The notes beneath the pieces were generated by a model. The model was given only the letters and a program-made list of their open reading frames with translations. It ran no database searches and had not been told where the DNA came from. Below, piece by piece: positions 54,357 to 63,743 of a DNA stretch of 64,000 nucleotides. The translations under genes were made by a program, and so were the position numbers. Location of the stretch: positions 1 through 64,000 of the forward strand of contig JAABSA010000004.1 of NCBI GenBank assembly GCA_011390635.1, in the 5' to 3' direction. Position 1 is the first letter of the stretch, and every line of letters begins with the position of its first letter. The DNA is from Desulfotignum sp. Its GTDB lineage: Bacteria > Desulfobacterota > Desulfobacteria > Desulfobacterales > Desulfobacteraceae.

Positions 54357-54578
54357 ATCCCCTCCTTTGGATCTAACGGGTTGGAATTTGCCTGCTGGTC
54401 TATGTCCTCTGTCTTAATGGGGATTCTTTGCCGTGTCAAATCTATTTTGGTGTTTTTTTTTTGCCCGCCGGCCAGAGGCCGGGAAGGCTATTTGTATCCG
54501 GTTGACATTATTGTATTTTTTTTATAGTATCCAGGACTTTTGATGCATACAATAAATTTTTATTTTAAGGACAAAAAT

Positions 54579-55370
54579 ATGAATGATCAAAAAATATCAG
54601 CAATTCCCCCAGAGCAGATGGGGCTTAATACCCGGTTCACGTTTCAATGCCACAAAGGGGTCAGGTGTTTTACCGACTGTTGCCGCGGGATTGATATCAT
54701 GCTCACCCCCTATGATATTCTGACCATGCGCCGGAAACTGGACCTGTCATCTGAAGAGTTTCTGGCAGTGTTTACCGAGCCTCAGATATTGGAAAAAGCG
54801 GATATGCCGGTGGTGACCCTTAAACTGCTGGATGATGACCGCAAATCCTGCCCGTTCGTGGAAGACAAAGACGGGTGTGTCATTTATGAAGACCGCCCTA
54901 CAACCTGCCGCTACTATCCCATCGGGGTGGGGGCCTTGAGTTATTCAGGAGAAAAAAAAGAAAAAGATGAGTTTTTTTTTACGGTCAAAGAGGCCCATTG
55001 TTTCGGATTTGAGGAAGACAAAGAATGGACAGTGGCACAGTGGCGCGAGGACCAGGGTATTGATCTGCGGGATGAGGTTAACGAAGGGTGGATGGACCTT
55101 ATGGTACGGAAAAAATCCCTGCCCCCCAGCATGAAGTTGTCCGAGGAAAGCAAAAAGATATTTTTCATGGTCTGCTATAATATTGATAAATTCAGAGACT
55201 TTGTCTTTCATTCGTCTTTTCTGGACCGGTATGAGATTGCTGCAGACCGGTTGGAAGAGATTCGGGCCGATGATGTCAAGCTGCTGCAGTTTGGATTTGA
55301 GTGGCTGAAGTCGGCATTTTTTCATGCCGGCAGGGAAAATTTTCAGGTTAAAGCAGGCAAAAAAGCGTAA
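54579..55370 (+). CDS. YkgJ-family cysteine-cluster protein
   Basis: This 263-residue cytoplasmic protein has the CxxxxxCxxxCC pattern of the YkgJ/UPF0153 family near its start (C24, C30, C34, C35 in FQCHKGVRCFTDCCRG). A second group follows in CPFVEDKDGCVIYEDRPTTC, then RYYPIG. These cysteines probably hold zinc or an iron-sulfur cluster; the molecular role of the family is unsettled. The C-terminal half is helical and charged. AAGGA precedes the ATG at 54579, which was preferred to the frame opening at 54540. Confidence 0.82.
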   Translation: MNDQKISAIPPEQMGLNTRFTFQCHKGVRCFTDCCRGIDIMLTPYDILTMRRKLDLSSEEFLAVFTEPQILEKADMPVVTLKLLDDDRKSCPFVEDKDGCVIYEDRPTTCRYYPIGVGALSYSGEKKEKDEFFFTVKEAHCFGFEEDKEWTVAQWREDQGIDLRDEVNEGWMDLMVRKKSLPPSMKLSEESKKIFFMVCYNIDKFRDFVFHSSFLDRYEIAADRLEEIRADDVKLLQFGFEWLKSAFFHAGRENFQVKAGKKA

Positions 55371-55591: not shown

Positions 55592-56014
55592 CTATCGCCG
55601 GTTTTTGTATTCTTTCAAAACCACTTTCGGTGCAAACCCGGGGTTGGTGATGTATTTGCCCATGTTTTTCAGGAAGGTCTTCACAAGGGATGCCAGCACG
55701 GTATCCTTTTCATGACTCATGATAAAGTTACGTTCCATGCGGTATTCATATACGACCTTTTCCCCCAGGGTTTCACGGATCTGTGCAAAGATGACCTCTG
55801 AAACCGGTTCGTTTTTAAACAGGTCCGGTTCCACTTTAATTTCCATGGCTGCCTGCATGATGACTACATGGGCATCATCGCTGATTTTCCGGGAAAAATC
55901 GGAAAGCACAAGGGTCTGACCGGTTTCCAGCGTGATCTTTTTGATGACGGTGCCGTTTTTTCGGAGTGGTTTCAAGAAGCGCTTTGCACCGGTTTTTGAA
56001 TTATTCATACCCAT
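55592..56014 (-). CDS. Unknown 140-residue protein overlapping dapA
   Basis: I do not recognise this family. The protein is soluble with a mixed strand/helix pattern; KKITLETGQTLVLSDFSRKI and SEVIFAQIRETLGEKVVYEY suggest a beta-rich first half and a helical end. The C-terminus is basic (KVVLKEYKNRR). The ATG at 56014 has AAGGA 7 bases upstream, while a second ATG at 56008 is also possible. It overlaps the 3' end of dapA by 14 bases and is almost surely cotranscribed with it. Confidence 0.6.
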   Translation of the reverse strand: MGMNNSKTGAKRFLKPLRKNGTVIKKITLETGQTLVLSDFSRKISDDAHVVIMQAAMEIKVEPDLFKNEPVSEVIFAQIRETLGEKVVYEYRMERNFIMSHEKDTVLASLVKTFLKNMGKYITNPGFAPKVVLKEYKNRR

Positions 56015-57038
56015 ACCACAGTCCTTGCTGGTGGATGGGGTTGTGAAGCCGTTCATCCAGGTCAAGGTTGAAAAATTCCGCAATGGGGATCAACAGTTCC
56101 GGATGGTTTGCCTGAACATGCTGCAGGGCCGCCACAATTTTGTCCAGACCCTGCCGGGTCATTTTGCCCAGGGGGCTGCGGCAGGGGCCGGAGGGCATGC
56201 CCAGCAGCTGCATCATGGTTTTTAAAGGCAGTGGATTTCTGGCCCGGCACAAGACCGGTCCAAAAGTTGTCTCTTCAGTGGTGGTAACTACTACCAGGTC
56301 CAGCAAAGGCCTAAGGGCTGTTTGAAGGCCATGGGCCGCATCTGTTTTTTTCTGGTTGATCAAGGACACCATCTGTGTCATGAATTTGGGAACGATATTG
56401 GACATAACGGATATGGCACCGCTGGCCAGGATGTCCGGATCAGTCATGATATCATATACCAGGGCATCATCACCGGAAAAGATCTGAAAGTCGGGCCCGC
56501 AGCACTTACGGGTGAGTTTCATGTTGTTTAGGTTGCCGGTGGCCTCCTTGACACTGGTGATATTGGGGCAGGACCGGGACAAAAGGGCCAGGTCCTGGGG
56601 CAGCATCTGGGTGCCGGTTCTGCCTGGGATAATATAAGGAATGATTTCCATATCCGGATACTGGACTGCCACCGCCTCATAATATTCTTTTCGGATTTCC
56701 AGAGAAGACGGTCCGTTATAATAGGGATCCACCATGAGAATGGCGTCCACCCCCTGGCTTGCCGCATGTCCGGCTGCCATCAGGGCCTCCTCCGTGTTGT
56801 TGCTGCCTGTCCCAGCAATGACGGCGCATCTGCCTCTGGCCTGTCTGGCAGCCAGGGCAATGACATGGTTGTGTTCCTGCCATTTGAAGGTGGGACTCTC
56901 TCCTGTGGTGCCGGTGACCAGAATGCCGGTGACCCCGTTTTGAATCTGAAAATTAATAAGCTTCTCCAAACCGTTTTGATCCAGTTCTCCAGCATCGGTG
57001 AACGGGGTGATAAGTGCAGTAAAGCATCCTTGTATCAT
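56001..57038 (-). CDS. dapA: 4-hydroxy-tetrahydrodipicolinate synthase (long form)
   Basis: This 345-residue aldolase condenses pyruvate with aspartate semialdehyde in lysine and diaminopimelate synthesis. All key residues are present: Thr44-Thr45 in TGTTGESP, Tyr107 in DPYYNG, Tyr135 and Arg140 in PYIIPGRTG, and the Schiff-base Lys164 in TSVKEATGN. It is about 50 residues longer than the usual 292-residue enzyme, through a C-terminal extension after GMPSGPCRSPLG. The ATG at 57038 has AGGAG 9 bases before it. A different function within the DapA/NanA lyase family is possible but the full active site argues for DapA. Confidence 0.88.
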   Translation of the reverse strand: MIQGCFTALITPFTDAGELDQNGLEKLINFQIQNGVTGILVTGTTGESPTFKWQEHNHVIALAARQARGRCAVIAGTGSNNTEEALMAAGHAASQGVDAILMVDPYYNGPSSLEIRKEYYEAVAVQYPDMEIIPYIIPGRTGTQMLPQDLALLSRSCPNITSVKEATGNLNNMKLTRKCCGPDFQIFSGDDALVYDIMTDPDILASGAISVMSNIVPKFMTQMVSLINQKKTDAAHGLQTALRPLLDLVVVTTTEETTFGPVLCRARNPLPLKTMMQLLGMPSGPCRSPLGKMTRQGLDKIVAALQHVQANHPELLIPIAEFFNLDLDERLHNPIHQQGLWYGYE

Positions 57039-57091
57039 AACAATCAACTCCTGGGATTGAAAAAAGGTTGTAAAATAAAGATCCAGGCCCC

Positions 57092-57117: not shown

Positions 57118-57266
57118 CACCTCTCCAGGAGCTCCTGTCAAGGTCCTCCCGTTAGAGCAAATAGCCAGAGGTACCCAAAGGTCTTGACTCCTGTGACAGA
57201 ACGTCTATTATAGTAAATTTTACCCGTAATACAAGATACAAATGTATAAAATATAAGGAGTTGTTC

Positions 57267-57944
57267 ATGTCAGATGCGCAGCAAAGGGACCATTTGCCCC
57301 GGAATGCGGATGAGCATATTGCAAAACTCAGATACCAGTTGACCCAGAATTCGGAATGCGGGACCACCCATTACAACCTGGGGGTAGCCCTGCTGGGCAA
57401 GCAGGAATATATGGAAGCGGAGAAAGTTCTCCACGAGGCCATTGAACACAGTCCCACCCTGGCTGAGGCGTATGTGCTTCTGGGCGGGATCTGCCTTCAG
57501 CGCGGAGACCTGGAGGGGTGCTTTCGGTTTAACCAGCGGGCCACCAAAGCCCGGGCCGGATTTGCCGAAGGCTATGCCAACATGGGTTTTGTTCTGCTTC
57601 AGCTGGTGGATGGCAAAGATGCCAAAGAAGATGAAGAAAAAGTGGACAAGGCCATTAAAAATTTAAAAAAAGCCATTATCCATAACAAATATTTTGTCCA
57701 GGCCTATGCCACCTTGGGAACCGCCTACTTTATGAAGGGACTATACCGGGAAGGTGTCCAGGCCAACCTGGAAGCCATTGGGGTACAGCCTGAATTTCCC
57801 ATTGCACACAACAACCTCGTAGTGGGATACCTGGAGCTCGGAGAGTATCAAAAAGCCATCCATCATTGCGACCAGGCCCAGCGTCTGGGGTATGATGTTG
57901 CACCGGATCTTTTGGAAGAACTGGCCGCCCATAAGAAAGGATGA
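57267..57944 (+). CDS. Tetratricopeptide-repeat protein upstream of dsr genes
   Basis: This 225-residue soluble protein has at least four TPR units (GTTHYNLGVALLGKQEYMEA, PTLAEAYVLLGGICLQRGDL, KYFVQAYATLGTAYFMKGLY, EFPIAHNNLVVGYLELGEYQ), so a protein-binding scaffold is expected. AAGGAG precedes the ATG at 57267. The last codons overlap the start of the unknown gene at 57941 (ATGA), so the two are translationally coupled. The pair stands directly before dsrAB, and a link to sulfite reductase assembly or regulation is possible but unproven. Confidence 0.85.
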   Translation: MSDAQQRDHLPRNADEHIAKLRYQLTQNSECGTTHYNLGVALLGKQEYMEAEKVLHEAIEHSPTLAEAYVLLGGICLQRGDLEGCFRFNQRATKARAGFAEGYANMGFVLLQLVDGKDAKEDEEKVDKAIKNLKKAIIHNKYFVQAYATLGTAYFMKGLYREGVQANLEAIGVQPEFPIAHNNLVVGYLELGEYQKAIHHCDQAQRLGYDVAPDLLEELAAHKKG

Positions 57945-59164
57945 CCTTTCATCCTCAGATAACGTTTTCTGTGCCGGGACATGCCCGGGCGGTGATTCCC
58001 GGCAGCCCGCTGTGGCAGATGCCCCTGTCCGGCAAAATGGGTCATAACCGACAAAAAAGCGGGAATAAAAAAACGATTGCCCGCAATATCTCTTTGCAGA
58101 ATGCTGCTGATGCATTCACCGTGGGAGACTATTTTCTGGCAGCCCGAGATTTTGTAATCCGTAATCAGGGGCAGATGCTTTATGAGGCTGTAACATCGCT
58201 TGCAGAAAACTGCGGCAGAATCGTGACAATTGACATCTGCCTGGAAAAACACGGGGCCTTTTATCACCCCCTCAAAATAACAGTAAACACCCAGCGTTTT
58301 TCTCCGCTTTATCTGGTTCTCAATGGTGCGGTTACAGAACCGGGCCTGACCCTTATCAAAACAGAGCATCAGCTGCTTGGAGACATGTCCGGAAAAGTTG
58401 TGCCGTCTTATATTCCCCGGATTTTCGGGACGGCAAAAATCGCACGTGTCCGCCGGGAGGCGGCATTTTTTCTGGGGGAATGGTTTGCCGGGTTTTCTGA
58501 ATTTCATGTGACCCCTACCAGCAGCGGAAACCAGGTGGCAGTGTGGGAAAATGACGGAGAACATGTGTTGATCACCTGGGATCAGGCTGCCGGGATCTAC
58601 GAGAAAATTGCCTATGTGCTGACAGCCTATTATGACATACGCACAGGGCATGAGATTTATCCCTGGCACCATGCAGCCGGCGATTTTGTGGTGAATTTTG
58701 CCAAAGATGCCCCTTTGGATGTCCGGTTGATCACGGTAAGGGGATACGCCCCTTTGGGTGAAATGAGGCAGGATTCTTTTGCACCCGGTGTGAAGTTGCT
58801 CGCCTGCCTGCTGTTTTATTTTTTGAACCTGACGCTGCGCATGCGCCTGGATCGGCTGGATGGGACAGGCCCACTGGTTTTTCTGCCCCGGATTGTGCTG
58901 GATGCCACCATAAAAGGGGCGCTGAAAGCCCTGGAGCACCGTGCAGAAGGACGTCTTGGAAGAGATGCCGACACCCTTCCCGCTCCTGTGGATTTGCAAC
59001 CGGCATTTGCACACTTTATATCTGGTTTTTCCCGAGAACAATTGATGGGTATCATGACCAATCTTATGGATGTCTGGCATCCGGATGCAGGTGAACAGGA
59101 TCTGGTGCAGGAAAATCTTTTTTCCCATTGCTGTCGGATTTGCAAGACATTTGAGGCAGTATGA
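57941..59164 (+). CDS. Unknown 407-residue protein coupled to the TPR gene, upstream of dsrA
   Basis: I do not recognise a named family. The protein has no signal peptide or membrane segment. Parts recall the protein/sugar-kinase fold: a strand-rich N-terminal lobe (IVTIDICLEKHGAFYHPLKI), AFFLGEWFAGFSEFH like the hinge of aminoglycoside-phosphotransferase-type kinases, and EIYPWHHAAGDFVVNFA where their catalytic loop would be. This is weak inference, and the usual HxD...D residues are not clearly placed. A CCRIC group ends the protein. The ATG overlaps the TPR stop (ATGA). A nearly equally long antisense frame exists but has shadow-like composition. Confidence 0.65.
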   Translation: MTFHPQITFSVPGHARAVIPGSPLWQMPLSGKMGHNRQKSGNKKTIARNISLQNAADAFTVGDYFLAARDFVIRNQGQMLYEAVTSLAENCGRIVTIDICLEKHGAFYHPLKITVNTQRFSPLYLVLNGAVTEPGLTLIKTEHQLLGDMSGKVVPSYIPRIFGTAKIARVRREAAFFLGEWFAGFSEFHVTPTSSGNQVAVWENDGEHVLITWDQAAGIYEKIAYVLTAYYDIRTGHEIYPWHHAAGDFVVNFAKDAPLDVRLITVRGYAPLGEMRQDSFAPGVKLLACLLFYFLNLTLRMRLDRLDGTGPLVFLPRIVLDATIKGALKALEHRAEGRLGRDADTLPAPVDLQPAFAHFISGFSREQLMGIMTNLMDVWHPDAGEQDLVQENLFSHCCRICKTFEAV

Positions 59165-59402
59165 TCAGATTTTCCTGGCCAAGGTGTGAAAAACAGGGGT
59201 GACGCAGGTTTTTTTATTGACATGTGCAAACAGAAATTCTATACCTGCAATGGTATTTTGTTGAAGCTGTACCTTTATGGTGGATGGTATTTGCAGGACA
59301 AATATTTGATTTGAAATGATACAAAATCAGACTATTGAATGAAAAGTTTGGAAATTCTTTTCATTAATTGAGTGTAATTTAACTTTTAACGGAGGTAAGT
59401 AA
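59165..59402 (+). promoter_or_regulatory. Upstream region of dsrAB
   Basis: This 238-base AT-rich region must carry the dsr promoter, since dsrA is preceded by no close gene. An inverted repeat ATGAAAAG...CTTTTCAT (59339-59346 / 59357-59364) lies about 40 bases before dsrA. CCTGCAA and TTGCAGG (59244-59250 / 59291-59297) form a wider one. No confident -35/-10 pair was found. CGGAGG precedes the ATG of dsrA. Confidence 0.5.
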
Positions 59403-60731
59403 ATGGCTAAGCATGAAACTCCTTTACTGGACCAGCTGGAATCCGGCCCATGGCCTAGCTTTGTCTCTGACCTGAAATTTCAGGCTGAAAAGAGAGCAAA
59501 GAATGAGGAAGGCATTGAGTTCCAGATGCCCGTGGATGTTGTTGAGGATCTTCTGGGAATTTTGGAACTTTCTTTCAAACACGGCAGAACCCATTGGAAA
59601 CACGGCGGCATCGTCGGTGTGTTCGGTTATGGCGGCGGGGTTATCGGCAGGTACTGTGACCAGCCCAAGAATTTTCCCGGTGTTGAGGCCTTTCATACCA
59701 TGCGTGTGAACCAGCCTGCCGGTAAGTACTACAAGACTGACTATCTCAAACAGCTGTGCGATCTGTGGGATTTCAGGGGGTCAGGCATTACCAATATGCA
59801 TGGCTCCACAGGGGATATCATCCTTCTGGGCACTACCACCAAGCAGCTGGAAGAAATTTTCTGGACCCTTACCCATGACATGAACCAGGATCTGGGCGGC
59901 TCCGGCTCCAACCTGAGGACCCCGTCCGATTGTCTGGGACAGTCCCGGTGTGAATATGCCTGCTATGACACCAATGCCCTGGTGTATTTTCTGACCAATG
60001 AATACCAGGACGAACTGCACAGGCCTGCTTTCCCCTATAAGTTCAAGTTTAAACTGGACGGCTGTCCCAACTGCTGCGTGGCATCCATTGCCCGGTCTGA
60101 CATGTCCTTTATCGGTACCTGGAAAGATGACATCCGCATTGACCAGGATGCGGTAAACAAATATGTTGAAAACGACCCGGCATATCCTGCCAATGCCGGT
60201 GCTTACAAGGGCAGCAAAGACTGGGGTCCCTTTGATCTTGAAAAAGAAGTGCTTGGTCTTTGCCCCACAAAATGTATGAAATTTCAAAACAAAAAACTGT
60301 TCATCGACAATGCCAACTGCACCCGGTGCATGCACTGCATCAATGTCATGCCAAGAGCTTTGAAAATTGGTAAAGAAACCGGCTGTTCTATTCTTTGCGG
60401 GGCGAAAGCACCGATTCTTGATGGTGCCCAGATGGGGTCTTTGCTGGTTCCGTTTATTGAAGTCAATCCTGACAATGATTATGAAGCGATTACGGAAGTT
60501 ATTGAAAACATCTGGGACTGGTGGATGGAAGAAGGCAAGAACCGTGAACGTCTGGGTGAGCTGATCATGCGCCAGGGTTTCCAGAAACTGCTGGAAGTCA
60601 CCGGTATCGATCCCATGCCCCAGCATGTTGCCTATCCCAGAACCAACCCCTACATCTTCTGGAAAGAAGATGAAGTACCGGGCGGCTGGGAACGTGATGT
60701 GGACGAATACAGAAAACACCATCAGAGATAG
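59403..60731 (+). CDS. dsrA: Dissimilatory sulfite reductase, alpha subunit
   Basis: This 442-residue alpha subunit of the cytoplasmic DsrAB complex catalyses the reduction of sulfite in sulfate respiration. The siroheme-linked [4Fe-4S] cluster ligands C177, C183, C221 and C225 lie in CLGQSRC and CPNCC. The inserted ferredoxin domain has C287 (LGLCPTKC) and C306, C309, C312 (CTRCMHC). TMRVNQPAGKYYKTDYLKQL and the long C-terminal arm fit reductive, bacterial-type DsrA. CGGAGG stands before the ATG. dsrB follows after 15 bases. Confidence 0.99.
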   Translation: MAKHETPLLDQLESGPWPSFVSDLKFQAEKRAKNEEGIEFQMPVDVVEDLLGILELSFKHGRTHWKHGGIVGVFGYGGGVIGRYCDQPKNFPGVEAFHTMRVNQPAGKYYKTDYLKQLCDLWDFRGSGITNMHGSTGDIILLGTTTKQLEEIFWTLTHDMNQDLGGSGSNLRTPSDCLGQSRCEYACYDTNALVYFLTNEYQDELHRPAFPYKFKFKLDGCPNCCVASIARSDMSFIGTWKDDIRIDQDAVNKYVENDPAYPANAGAYKGSKDWGPFDLEKEVLGLCPTKCMKFQNKKLFIDNANCTRCMHCINVMPRALKIGKETGCSILCGAKAPILDGAQMGSLLVPFIEVNPDNDYEAITEVIENIWDWWMEEGKNRERLGELIMRQGFQKLLEVTGIDPMPQHVAYPRTNPYIFWKEDEVPGGWERDVDEYRKHHQR

Positions 60732-60746
60732 AAAGGGAGAATAATA

Positions 60747-61895
60747 ATGGCATTTATTTCGACTGGTTATAATCCAGAAAAACCGATGGAAAACCGGATT
60801 ACCGACATCGGTCCCAGAGACTATAACGAATTTTATCCTCCTGTGATCGCAAAAAACAAGGGCAAATGGTCTCACCATGAAATCCTTGCGCCCGGCGTTC
60901 TCGTGCACGTGGCTGATTCAGGAGATGAAGTATACACGGTAAGAGTGGGCGGGGCACGTCTGATGTCCACCAGCCTGATCAATGAAATCTGTGAGATTGC
61001 AGACAAACATTGTGACGGATATGTGCGGTTCACCACCAGAAATAATGTGGAGTTCATGGTGGATTCCAAAGATAAGCTGGAGCCTTTGAAAAATGAGTTG
61101 TCCTCCAGAAAATTTGCCGGCGGCTCTTTCAAGTTCCCCATCGGCGGCACCGGTGCAGGTATTACCAATATTGTCCATACCCAGGGCTGGATTCACTGCC
61201 ATACCCCGGCAACCGATGCATCAGGTACGGTGAAAGCCGCCATGGACGTGCTGTTCGATGATTTTCAGGACATGAGACTGCCGGCACAGCTGCGGGTTTC
61301 CATGGCCTGCTGCCTGAACATGTGCGGTGCTGTGCATTGCTCTGATATCGCCATCCTGGGATATCACAGAAAACCGCCCATGCTGGACCATGAATATCTG
61401 GACAAGGTCTGCGAAATTCCTCTGGCTGTTTCCGCCTGTCCCACCGCAGCCATCAAGCCTGCCAAGATAAAGCTGGACAGCGGAAAAGAGGTCAAGTCTG
61501 TTGATGTCAAGAACGAACGGTGCATGTACTGCGGTAACTGCTACACCATGTGCCCGTCCATGCCCCTGGCGGATACGGAAGGGGATGGTATTGTTCTGAT
61601 GGCCGGTGGAAAGGTATCCAACCGGATTTCCGATCCCAAATTTTCCAAAGTGGTTGTGGCCTTTCTGCCCAATGAAATGCCCCGGTGGCCGTCCATGACC
61701 GATGCCATCCAGAGAATGGTGGAGGCCTATGCCAAAGGCGCCAATAAATACGAACGTCTGGGTGACTGGGCGGAAAGAATCGGATGGGAAAAATTCTTTG
61801 AGGTGTGTGAGCTTGATTTTACCCATCACCTGATTGATGATTTCCGTCAGCAGGCATACATGAGCTGGCGTCAATCCACTCAGTTCAAATTCTAA
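60747..61895 (+). CDS. dsrB: Dissimilatory sulfite reductase, beta subunit
   Basis: This 382-residue beta subunit contributes the catalytic siroheme site of DsrAB. Cluster cysteines C151 ([13 protein letters not shown]), C188, C189 and C193 (MACCLNMC) are at the expected positions. A ferredoxin domain follows with [11 protein letters not shown] near 260-270. AAAGGGAG precedes the ATG. It is cotranscribed with dsrA; a strong hairpin separates it from dsrD. Confidence 0.99.
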
Positions 61896-61998: not shown

Positions 61999-62256
61999 AT
62001 GAGTGATCTTCTTGACAACAAAGAAGCTGCACAAGAGGCAGTCGTGGAATGGCTGAACAAAAAAGCCAAAACCAAATCCAAGTTTTATATCAAGGATTTT
62101 TATAAGATTTTCCCGGATGACAAACCCAGAATGATTAAAAAAGTAGTCAATAAAATGGTGGAAGACGGAATCCTTGAATTCTGGTCTTCCGGTTCCACCA
62201 CCATGTATGGTCTCAAAGGCGGGGGTATCCAGCACTCTTCTGAAGGTGAAAATTAA
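61999..62256 (+). CDS. dsrD: DsrD, small winged-helix protein activating sulfite reduction
   Basis: This 85-residue protein has the DsrD winged-helix pattern: EAVVEWLNKKAKTKSKFYIK then DFYKIFPDDKPRMIKKVVNK, with MVEDGILEFWSSGSTTMYGL at the C-terminal wing. It is found in sulfate reducers, downstream of dsrAB, and has been reported to stimulate DsrAB activity rather than act as a DNA-binding regulator. AAAGGAG precedes the ATG. dsrN follows after 23 bases. Confidence 0.97.
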   Translation: MSDLLDNKEAAQEAVVEWLNKKAKTKSKFYIKDFYKIFPDDKPRMIKKVVNKMVEDGILEFWSSGSTTMYGLKGGGIQHSSEGEN

Positions 62257-62279: not shown

Positions 62280-63743
62280 ATGCAGGCAAGTTGTGAAAGT
62301 GTCCCTGGCGTAGTGGTGGCAGGTCTCAGGGGTGGATCGGGCAAAACCATTATCTCCCTGGGGATCACCGCTGCATGGAAGCGCATGAATATTGCGGTCT
62401 CCCCGTTTAAAAAAGGTCCTGATTATATTGATGCCGGCTGGCTTTCCCTGGCAGCCGGCCGCCCCTGCTACAATCTTGACACCTATCTGTGCGATTCTGC
62501 TGTTGTGCAGCAATCCTATCTATCACACTCCCAATATTGCGACATCGCCCTTGTGGAAGGAAACCGCGGTCTTTATGACGGCATTGATACCGATGGTTCC
62601 ACCTCCACGGCAGAACTGGCCAAACTGCTGAATTTGCCGGTGGTGCTGGTGCTGGACTGCACCAAAAGCACTCGGACCATGGCTGCGCTGCTGCTGGGGT
62701 GCATGCATTTTGATCCACAGGTGCGCATTGCCGGGGTGATCCTCAACCAGGTGGCCGGCAAACGCCACCAGAAAAAAGTTGCGGCCAATATTGAACGGTT
62801 CTGCAAAATACCGGTATTCGGTGCCGTTCCCAAACTGGGATCCGAAGATTTTCCCGAACGTCATATGGGGCTGGTACCATCGGCAGAACATGGGTCTTCT
62901 CACAAAGCCCTTGCCGCAGTCGCAAAAATGGCCACTGACCACATTGATCTCAACGCCCTGTACCGGGCAATAATTGATGACTGCACAACCTGTGGGAAAC
63001 AAAAAATTCCGATTGCCCATCAACATCTTCTCGCCGGCCACAAGCCGACGGCCCCGGCAGTTTCAGTGCCGACAAAAAATCAGCAACCACAGAATCAGGT
63101 GGTTATTGGTGTCATCAGGGATTCTGCTTTCCAGTTTTACTATCCGGATAATCTGGAGGCATTGAAAAACCTGGGAGCCCACATTGTATTCATCAGTCCG
63201 CTAAACCAGAAAACCCTTCCTGATGTCGATGCACTTTACATGGGCGGGGGATTTCCGGAAACCCATGCGCCCCAGCTGGCAGAAAACACACATTTTCGGG
63301 ATCATCTCAAACGCCTTTCCCTGAAAGGACTGCCCATTTATGCTGAATGCGGCGGTTTGATTTTCCTGGGCCAAAGTATCAGCCTAAAAGACAAAGAATA
63401 CCCCATGTCCGGCATTCTGCCCATCTGGTTCGGTCTTTCCATAAAGCCCCAGGGCCATGGTTATACCCGGGTGCAAGTGAAGCATGAAAATCCATTTTAC
63501 CGCTTCGGGGAGATGTTAAAAGGCCATGAGTTCCGGTATTCAAAAATTTTGAAAATCGATTTTCAAGACCATGAAATGGCCTTTTCCATGGAACGGGGCA
63601 AGGGCATTCTGGATAAAAAAGATGGTTTTTTTAAAAACAATACCTTTGGTACCTATACCCACATCCATGCCCTGGGATCGGTTTCCTGGGCCCCTTCCCT
63701 GGTGGCAAACGCCAGGGCGTATAAAGCGAGGAGATATCCATGA
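62280..63743 (+). CDS. dsrN: DsrN, cobyrinate a,c-diamide synthase-like siroheme amidase
   Basis: This 487-residue glutamine-dependent amidotransferase belongs to the CobB/CbiA family. Its N-terminal ATPase domain has the P-loop GLRGGSGKT (15-23). The C-terminal triad-type glutaminase domain has [11 protein letters not shown] and the nucleophile Cys357 in IYAECGGL. In dsr loci this gene is called dsrN and is thought to amidate siroheme for DsrAB. A cobalamin-synthesis role (cbiA/cobB) is the alternative, but position directly after dsrD favours dsrN. The ribosome site is weak. The stop overlaps the start of panC (ATGA). Confidence 0.9.

Follow-up and report, generated by a model that had tools for sequence, protein, structure and literature searches.

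A TPR-repeat gene and a gene for a predicted kinase-fold protein accompany dsrAB in Desulfobacterota and may form an accessory module of DsrAB

We analyzed a 64,000-nucleotide stretch of a Desulfotignum sp. genome (assembly GCA_011390635.1, contig JAABSA010000004.1, positions 1 to 64,000), hereafter the window, in which two genes lie ahead of dsrAB. DsrAB catalyzes the sulfite-reducing step of sulfate respiration. The first gene encodes a TPR-repeat protein (hereafter TPR) and the second a protein here called P2. The locus comprises the following features, the name dsrN having been given by position and from the literature:

54540..55370, + strand, gene for a CxxCxxCC (PF03692) protein, start codon uncertain
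56001-57047, - strand, DHDPS-family gene, divergent from TPR
57184..57211, + strand, promoter-like site of the TPR-P2 unit, TTGACT-N16-TATTAT, consensus match only
57267..57944, + strand, TPR-repeat protein gene, 225 aa (Pfam match; alignment A3)
57941..59164, + strand, P2, 407 aa, predicted kinase fold with an apparently altered active site
59189..59215, + strand, terminator-like hairpin and T run 3' of P2, from the folding of relatives
59217..59245, + strand, promoter-like site of dsrA, TTGACA-N17-TATACC, found by eye from the alignment
59403..60731, + strand, dsrA (TIGR02064, E 2e-178)
60747..61895, + strand, dsrB (TIGR02066, E 1e-144)
61999..62256, + strand, dsrD (PF08679, E 4e-34)
62280..63743, + strand, dsrN/cobB-type cobyrinate a,c-diamide synthase homologue (NF002204, E 3.5e-131)

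The initial annotation had described a TPR gene and a 407-aa gene before dsrAB, and the ORFs, coordinates and products were recovered as described. It had also proposed that the two genes are coupled; the stop codon of TPR and the start codon of P2 share the letters ATGA (57941-57944), a 4-nt overlap that agrees with this proposal and fits translational coupling. An overlap of 1 or 4 nt was found in 28 of the 66 loci in which both ORFs were callable, all from closer genera; in remoter families the spacing was mostly 0 to about 400 bp. P2 ends 238 bp before dsrA. Against the nearest relative (L061), the third codon position was the most-changed one in both genes (48 of 63 differences in TPR and 59 of 132 in P2), and dN was lower than dS, with dN/dS about 0.06 for TPR and about 0.35 for P2. 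Judged by these sequence comparisons, both reading frames are real genes under purifying selection. The antisense frame of P2 has no stop in the window and 1 to 9 stops in the five relatives examined. P2 was the single match in the source genome, and the nearest P2-pattern matches beyond it were in Desulfobacteraceae and Desulfotignum records.

The first gene matched the Pfam model TPR_1 in three stretches at 67.3 bits against a cut-off of 27.8 (E 6e-19), and its group is tightly conserved, with a mean column identity of 67% in an alignment with 39 relatives. Searches with the P2 sequence returned no Pfam family (best SGT1, E 0.44), 0 NCBIfam families and, by phmmer, 0 matches in the PDB, and suggested no enzyme class. 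PF01636 (APH) was absent from the 25 of 26 Pfam families listed up to E 1 for 62 P2 members, and alignment of P2 by hhalign with eight APH-type proteins, from the 8 of 16 loci that passed the motif filter, gave E 0.35, that is, no sequence support. Scattered weak Pfam matches, the best of them to Inositol_P (one member, E 0.0017) and FolB (three members, E 0.0034), were attributed to chance because no family was common to the members; a PDB match of the 62-sequence P2 profile to Prox1 (E 0.2) was likewise taken as chance.

The structure of P2 was predicted with AlphaFold2 at full length from 62 sequences (pLDDT 89.1, pTM 0.89) and for residues 55-407 from 41 sequences (pLDDT 90.7, pTM 0.91). 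All 50 matches listed by Foldseek were kinases or kinase-like by title (best E 1e-4), at low TM-scores of about 0.24-0.46, and the matches listed by VIA were also all kinases or kinase-like by title. With the core of P2, VIA gave NahK 4wh3 (Z 13.2, rmsd 3.9 A, 248 residues), PsiK 8zic (Z 13.0, 5.2 A, 261 residues), Bud32 (Z 12.9, 4.7 A, 220 residues), APH(2'')-IVa 4n57 (Z 12.9, 3.9 A, 218 residues) and choline kinase (Z 11.7, 5.2 A, 253 residues); with the full-length model it gave PsiK (Z 13.1) and NahK (Z 13.0). P2 is thus predicted to have a two-lobed protein-kinase-like fold, and the "faint kinase-fold features" that the initial annotation had seen in the 407-residue protein became, in AlphaFold2, Foldseek and VIA, its predicted fold. 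Among the matches listed, the nearest branch by the model is the APH/choline-kinase group in general; only the group as a whole is named because rows within one Z unit tie.

The site residues of P2 were assigned from the predicted secondary structure rather than from coordinates, and counted in 124 non-identical ORFs, some perhaps from one genome present twice. L127, with a wrongly called P2 start, was left out of the alignment A2. Strands 1 and 2 are joined by a loop of sequence K-H-G-x-x-Y-H-P, in which K103 is kept in 123/124 (one gap), H104 and Y108 each in 122/124 and H109 in 121/124. Strand 3 is without a Lys, N128 being present in 111/124, and the helix-C acid is kept as E142 (Glu in 118/124, Asp in 6/124). 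Beyond the hinge, W181, E187 and H189 are found in 124/124. The place of the catalytic loop, residues 242-249, reads W-H-H-A-A-G-D-F and does not match HxDxxxxN; W242, G247, D248 and F249 occur in 124/124, H243 in 121/124 and H244 in 119/124. Residues 263-268 read LITVRG, with R267 in 124/124 and no acid where a DFG motif would have its Asp, and D304 and G308 are again present in 124/124. By this placement, the usual kinase catalytic residues appear to be replaced, and the conserved ones would be grouped in one cleft. Since such invariance is unlike that of a decaying pseudokinase, the site suggests a new ligand or reaction.

A reaction would be expected if P2 were an active, unorthodox kinase-fold transferase, in which K103 and the His/Asp set modify a protein or small molecule of the Dsr pathway and TPR presents the substrate. 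Kinase-fold enzymes with a moved lysine or other chemistry exist (WNK, SelO), and the presence of K103, W181, E187, H189, D248 and R267 in 123-124 of 124 ORFs, far above the rest of P2 and unlike the pattern of a decaying pseudokinase, would suit such an enzyme. However, the secondary-structure placement shows no acid in the position of the DFG Asp, which normally binds the metal, and the sequence points to no enzyme class; we regard an active transferase as improbable.

The arrangement of control signals suggested how the pair is transcribed. The promoter-like site ahead of TPR was visible in 8 of 9 aligned upstream regions and missing in L061. The hairpin after P2 is well folded in two relatives, L063 (z -3.3) and L064 (z -2.4), and its folding is weak in L065, L069 and the window (z -0.2). 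The TTGACA and TATAxC of the dsrA site were present in 9/9 aligned sequences, all from closer genera; the site did not appear in the promoter scan list, its last base not being T. Because this promoter-like site between P2 and dsrA is conserved, the pair is probably transcribed as a separate unit preceding dsrAB, with read-through possible, and a single operon TPR-P2-dsrAB was dropped for the same reason. The earlier description of the pair as directly upstream of dsrAB consequently holds for position and not in the sense of one operon.

The initial annotation had made its suggestion depend on gene order, with non-adjacency to dsrAB in relatives counting against it. The family sample comprised 86 genomes including the source genome, and contained TPR (cut-off E<=1e-20) in 78/86, dsrA in 73/86 and P2 in 64/86. 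Adjacency was found nearly throughout: among same-contig pairs, TPR preceded dsrA by at most 3 kb on the same strand in 66/66, P2 preceded dsrA by at most 1.5 kb, likewise on the same strand, in 51/53, and TPR preceded P2 by at most 1 kb in 55/58. P2 was 0.25 Mb from dsrA in G021 and 0.88 Mb in G020, and in G008 a distance of 1152 bp separated TPR from what is only a partial match to P2. P2 was on a different contig from TPR and dsrA in G077; TPR and P2 were together with dsrA on a different contig in G067, and TPR was on a separate contig in G009. Eighteen family genomes had TPR without P2, 17 of them with dsrA, and here TPR lay 229-525 bp before dsrA, a gap too small for P2, showing that P2 can disappear from this position. 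Of the two genes, TPR is the more constant partner of dsrAB; in genus g4 of the family, P2 was missing in 15/19 genomes. Two genomes (G064, G071) had two P2 contigs each of unequal similarity, representing either mixed bins or true duplicates.

Beyond the family, contigs from one genome per species (84,980 species) were scanned with two exact peptide patterns for P2, yielding 354 stretches with P2 relatives. Among the best 80 of these 354, which were kept, TPR adjoined P2 in 74 and dsrA followed in 66. In five of the six TPR misses the contig ended less than 400 bp away on the TPR side, and L124 was a true miss; of the 14 dsrA misses, 8 had less than 600 bp left, and L096, L102, L107, L112, L124 and L128 lacked dsrA despite more room.

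An evenly drawn phylum sample of 395 genomes (TPR cut-off E<=1e-45) contained P2 in 64/395, dsrA in 190/395 and TPR in 75/395. Nearly every genome with one of the pair was dsrA-positive, namely 63/64 with P2 (exception G182) and 73/75 with TPR (exceptions G127 and G382), giving Fisher p values for co-occurrence with dsrA of 6e-22 (P2) and 9e-25 (TPR) in which shared ancestry is ignored. Gene order again agreed with the expected adjacency: with the source genome left out, 36/41 same-contig pairs of P2 and dsrA, 44/53 of TPR and dsrA (G275 being far, at 126 kb) and 32/36 of P2 and TPR were within 5 kb. Eight P2-positive genomes were without dsrA coordinates, seven of them dsrA-positive and the eighth G182. 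This genome is 99% complete and has a P2 relative at L227:7486-8637 (-), no dsrA match, and near P2 a radical-SAM-like gene (below cut-off) and a DUF362 gene; it possibly represents an independent use of P2.

The linkage had its exceptions. In 20/63 P2 genomes, P2 was not placed within 10 kb of dsrA or TPR, being on other contigs, with coordinates missing, or truly far. P2 was more than 100 kb from both partners in G296 and G419, while TPR there adjoined dsrA, and it was on a contig other than that of the TPR-dsrA pair in G220, G247, G272 and G401. In family f50, TPR was 0.1-2.9 Mb from dsrA in all six same-contig genomes (G125, G161, G275, G362, G402 and G476). The pair itself stayed united in G123, G159, G295 and G339 although dsrA is well away there, which speaks for a common module, and also in G248, where dsrA is on a different contig. 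At E<=1e-45, TPR was missing from 20/63 P2 genomes and from 117/190 dsrA-positive genomes, and 127/190 dsrA-positive genomes had no P2 match, so DsrAB can be made without the pair. P2 in particular is not indispensable to DsrAB, given its absence from these 127 genomes and from most of genus g4.

At least four gene orders among TPR, P2 and dsrAB were found in the phylum sample. Desulfobacterales have TPR-P2-dsrA on a single strand. In a second order, found in 17 genomes, TPR-X faces P2-Y with a TPR-P2 gap of 616-744 bp, dsrA being within 5 kb in 12 of them and dsrD and dsrB standing before TPR in loci L211-L213, which gives dsrABD-TPR-X facing P2-Y. In L217, P2 and dsrABD face each other, and X, Y, TPR and dsrN lie on the far side of P2; divergent orders occur, for example, in G397, G381 and G456. 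X is a CxxCxxCC protein (PF03692) lying between TPR and P2 in other families, and Y is a zinc-ribbon protein with DVU0298-type HEAT repeats (NF045662), the zinc ribbon having been recognized by eye. Both were present in 11/11 loci examined of the 17-genome type, two of which were the query sources. A DVU0298-family match above cut-off was obtained in 22/24 genomes searched, the source genome included, and in G362 and G476 the DVU0298-type gene is beside TPR. P2 follows dsrN in G362; a supposed extra fused domain of this P2 (586-aa ORF) was rejected, the N-terminal addition having no profile, Pfam or NCBIfam match and overlapping the stretch of the dsrN match. The neighbors in these other families include:

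L217:10641-11729, zinc-ribbon and DVU0298-type HEAT protein beside P2 or TPR
L213:11176-12255, the same type beside P2 or TPR
L211:4182-5303, the same type beside P2 or TPR
L214:8877-10205, - strand, YcaO-family gene between dsrB and TPR (G316)
L215:8276-8824, + strand, SlyD-like prolyl isomerase (below cut-off) beside TPR (G381)
L215:9281-10261, - strand, siroheme-decarboxylase-like gene beside TPR (G381)

Many Desulfobacterales loci carry a CxxCxxCC gene a few kb ahead of TPR, and the protein encoded at 54540..55370 possibly belongs to the module as well. Identity between the two CxxCxxCC types is only 28-35%, over 50-72 residues, and we do not claim them as orthologues.

These orders bear on whether the pair has any function tied to DsrAB or is kept near it only by inheritance of the whole dsr block. 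In Desulfobacterales, the DHDPS-like gene divergent from TPR is nearly as faithful a neighbor, so some of the adjacency reflects inheritance of the block as a whole; this gene and the CxxCxxCC gene upstream are also widely kept there, and in some genomes P2 lies apart from dsrA, all of which would suit mere hitch-hiking. On the other hand, TPR and P2 still stand by dsrAB in other families, in other orders and orientations and without the DHDPS gene, and P2 is nearly confined to dsrA-positive genomes (63/64). The DHDPS-like gene was not found in 19 other stretches examined besides that of G295, in which it stays beside TPR-P2 and away from dsrA. Hitch-hiking alone is very unlikely in our estimate, and the repeated company in differing orders is the strongest argument for a functional link of TPR and P2 with dsrAB.

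As the nature of this link, we tentatively favor, at somewhat below an even chance, a dedicated accessory module of DsrAB, most likely for assembly or cofactor loading. TPR would act as a helical scaffold, probably binding DsrA, DsrB or their apo-forms. P2 would provide a kinase fold in which a conserved Lys/His/Arg-rich set has taken the place of the catalytic residues and, because the site is rich in these residues, would probably bind an anionic ligand or cofactor rather than carry out the usual phosphate transfer; the candidates are siroheme, siroheme amide, a nucleotide and sulfite. Together they may help to load a cofactor into DsrAB, or to assemble it. From the observed linkage and co-occurrence, the predicted fold, the invariant residues and the conserved promoter-like sites, we infer the partnership of the two proteins, their binding to DsrAB, the ligand and the role in assembly. 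We lean towards assembly because the neighbors in other families, namely the CxxCxxCC, zinc-ribbon/HEAT, siroheme-decarboxylase-like, SlyD-like, YcaO and dsrN proteins, point that way circumstantially.

The same locus could instead encode a control switch, in which P2 senses a metabolite such as sulfite, APS, ATP or AMP in its altered cleft and, via TPR, alters DsrAB activity or dsr expression. It is generally known that kinase-fold proteins without catalysis often serve as switches, and the promoter-like site of the pair, with a terminator-like hairpin before dsrA, means that its level could be set apart from that of dsrAB. The neighboring DsrD is moreover described as an allosteric activator of DsrAB (PMC10591310). 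Nevertheless, Pfam and NCBIfam searches found a DNA-binding or known sensor domain in neither TPR nor P2, and the neighbors in other families resemble cofactor and folding proteins, making control a possible but somewhat unlikely role, and the closest competitor of assembly.

Within the favored reading of an accessory module for assembly or cofactor loading, a bolder form would have P2 found an unrecognized branch of the kinase fold, its ATP cleft rebuilt into a basic, His-rich pocket that takes up siroheme or a different anionic cofactor, and TPR-P2 serve as a dedicated DsrAB maturation machine in Desulfobacterota that takes in the CxxCxxCC and zinc-ribbon/HEAT proteins in some families; we consider this form rather unlikely. 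We know of no dedicated factors that fit DsrAB with siroheme and iron-sulfur clusters, and none was found in the literature searched. In many sulfate-reducing bacteria, TPR and P2 stand by dsrAB and are good candidates to build or tune DsrAB. As candidates that travel with DsrAB, they are open to deletion, purification and co-expression, and they offer a concrete reason for a trial in the recombinant production of active DsrAB.

No description of TPR or P2 was found in the literature searched, most subscription papers being outside its reach. Clustered sulfate-respiration genes were reportedly treated by Mussmann et al. in 2005, who may mention these ORFs. As far as searched, both proteins are unnamed, the kinase fold is known and the P2 site is new. 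TPR shares its repeats with scaffold proteins such as MamA, PilW and Tgl, whose models match it below their cut-offs; it differs from these as a distinct, tightly conserved protein of about 205-225 aa tied to dsrAB. P2 resembles the APH/choline-kinase branch in its two predicted lobes over most of the chain and its kept helix-C acid, whereas its identity in VIA is about 8-12%, no sequence profile matches, the places of the strand-3 Lys, catalytic Asp and DFG Asp are otherwise filled, and new residues are invariant. WNK, SelO and UbiB/COQ8 are pseudokinases or atypical kinases, and the residue set of P2 (KHGxxYHP loop, WHHAAGDF loop and R after the next strand) is not known to us from any protein of these types; P2 is like them in its predicted kinase fold with altered catalytic residues, which in those proteins goes with a switch or other chemistry. 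In the same dsr cluster, DsrN is described as possibly amidating siroheme (PMC6018796). TPR and P2 are like DsrD and DsrN in being kept in the dsrAB gene cluster, and unlike them in their unrelated sequences, their less wide spread and an apparent promoter of their own.
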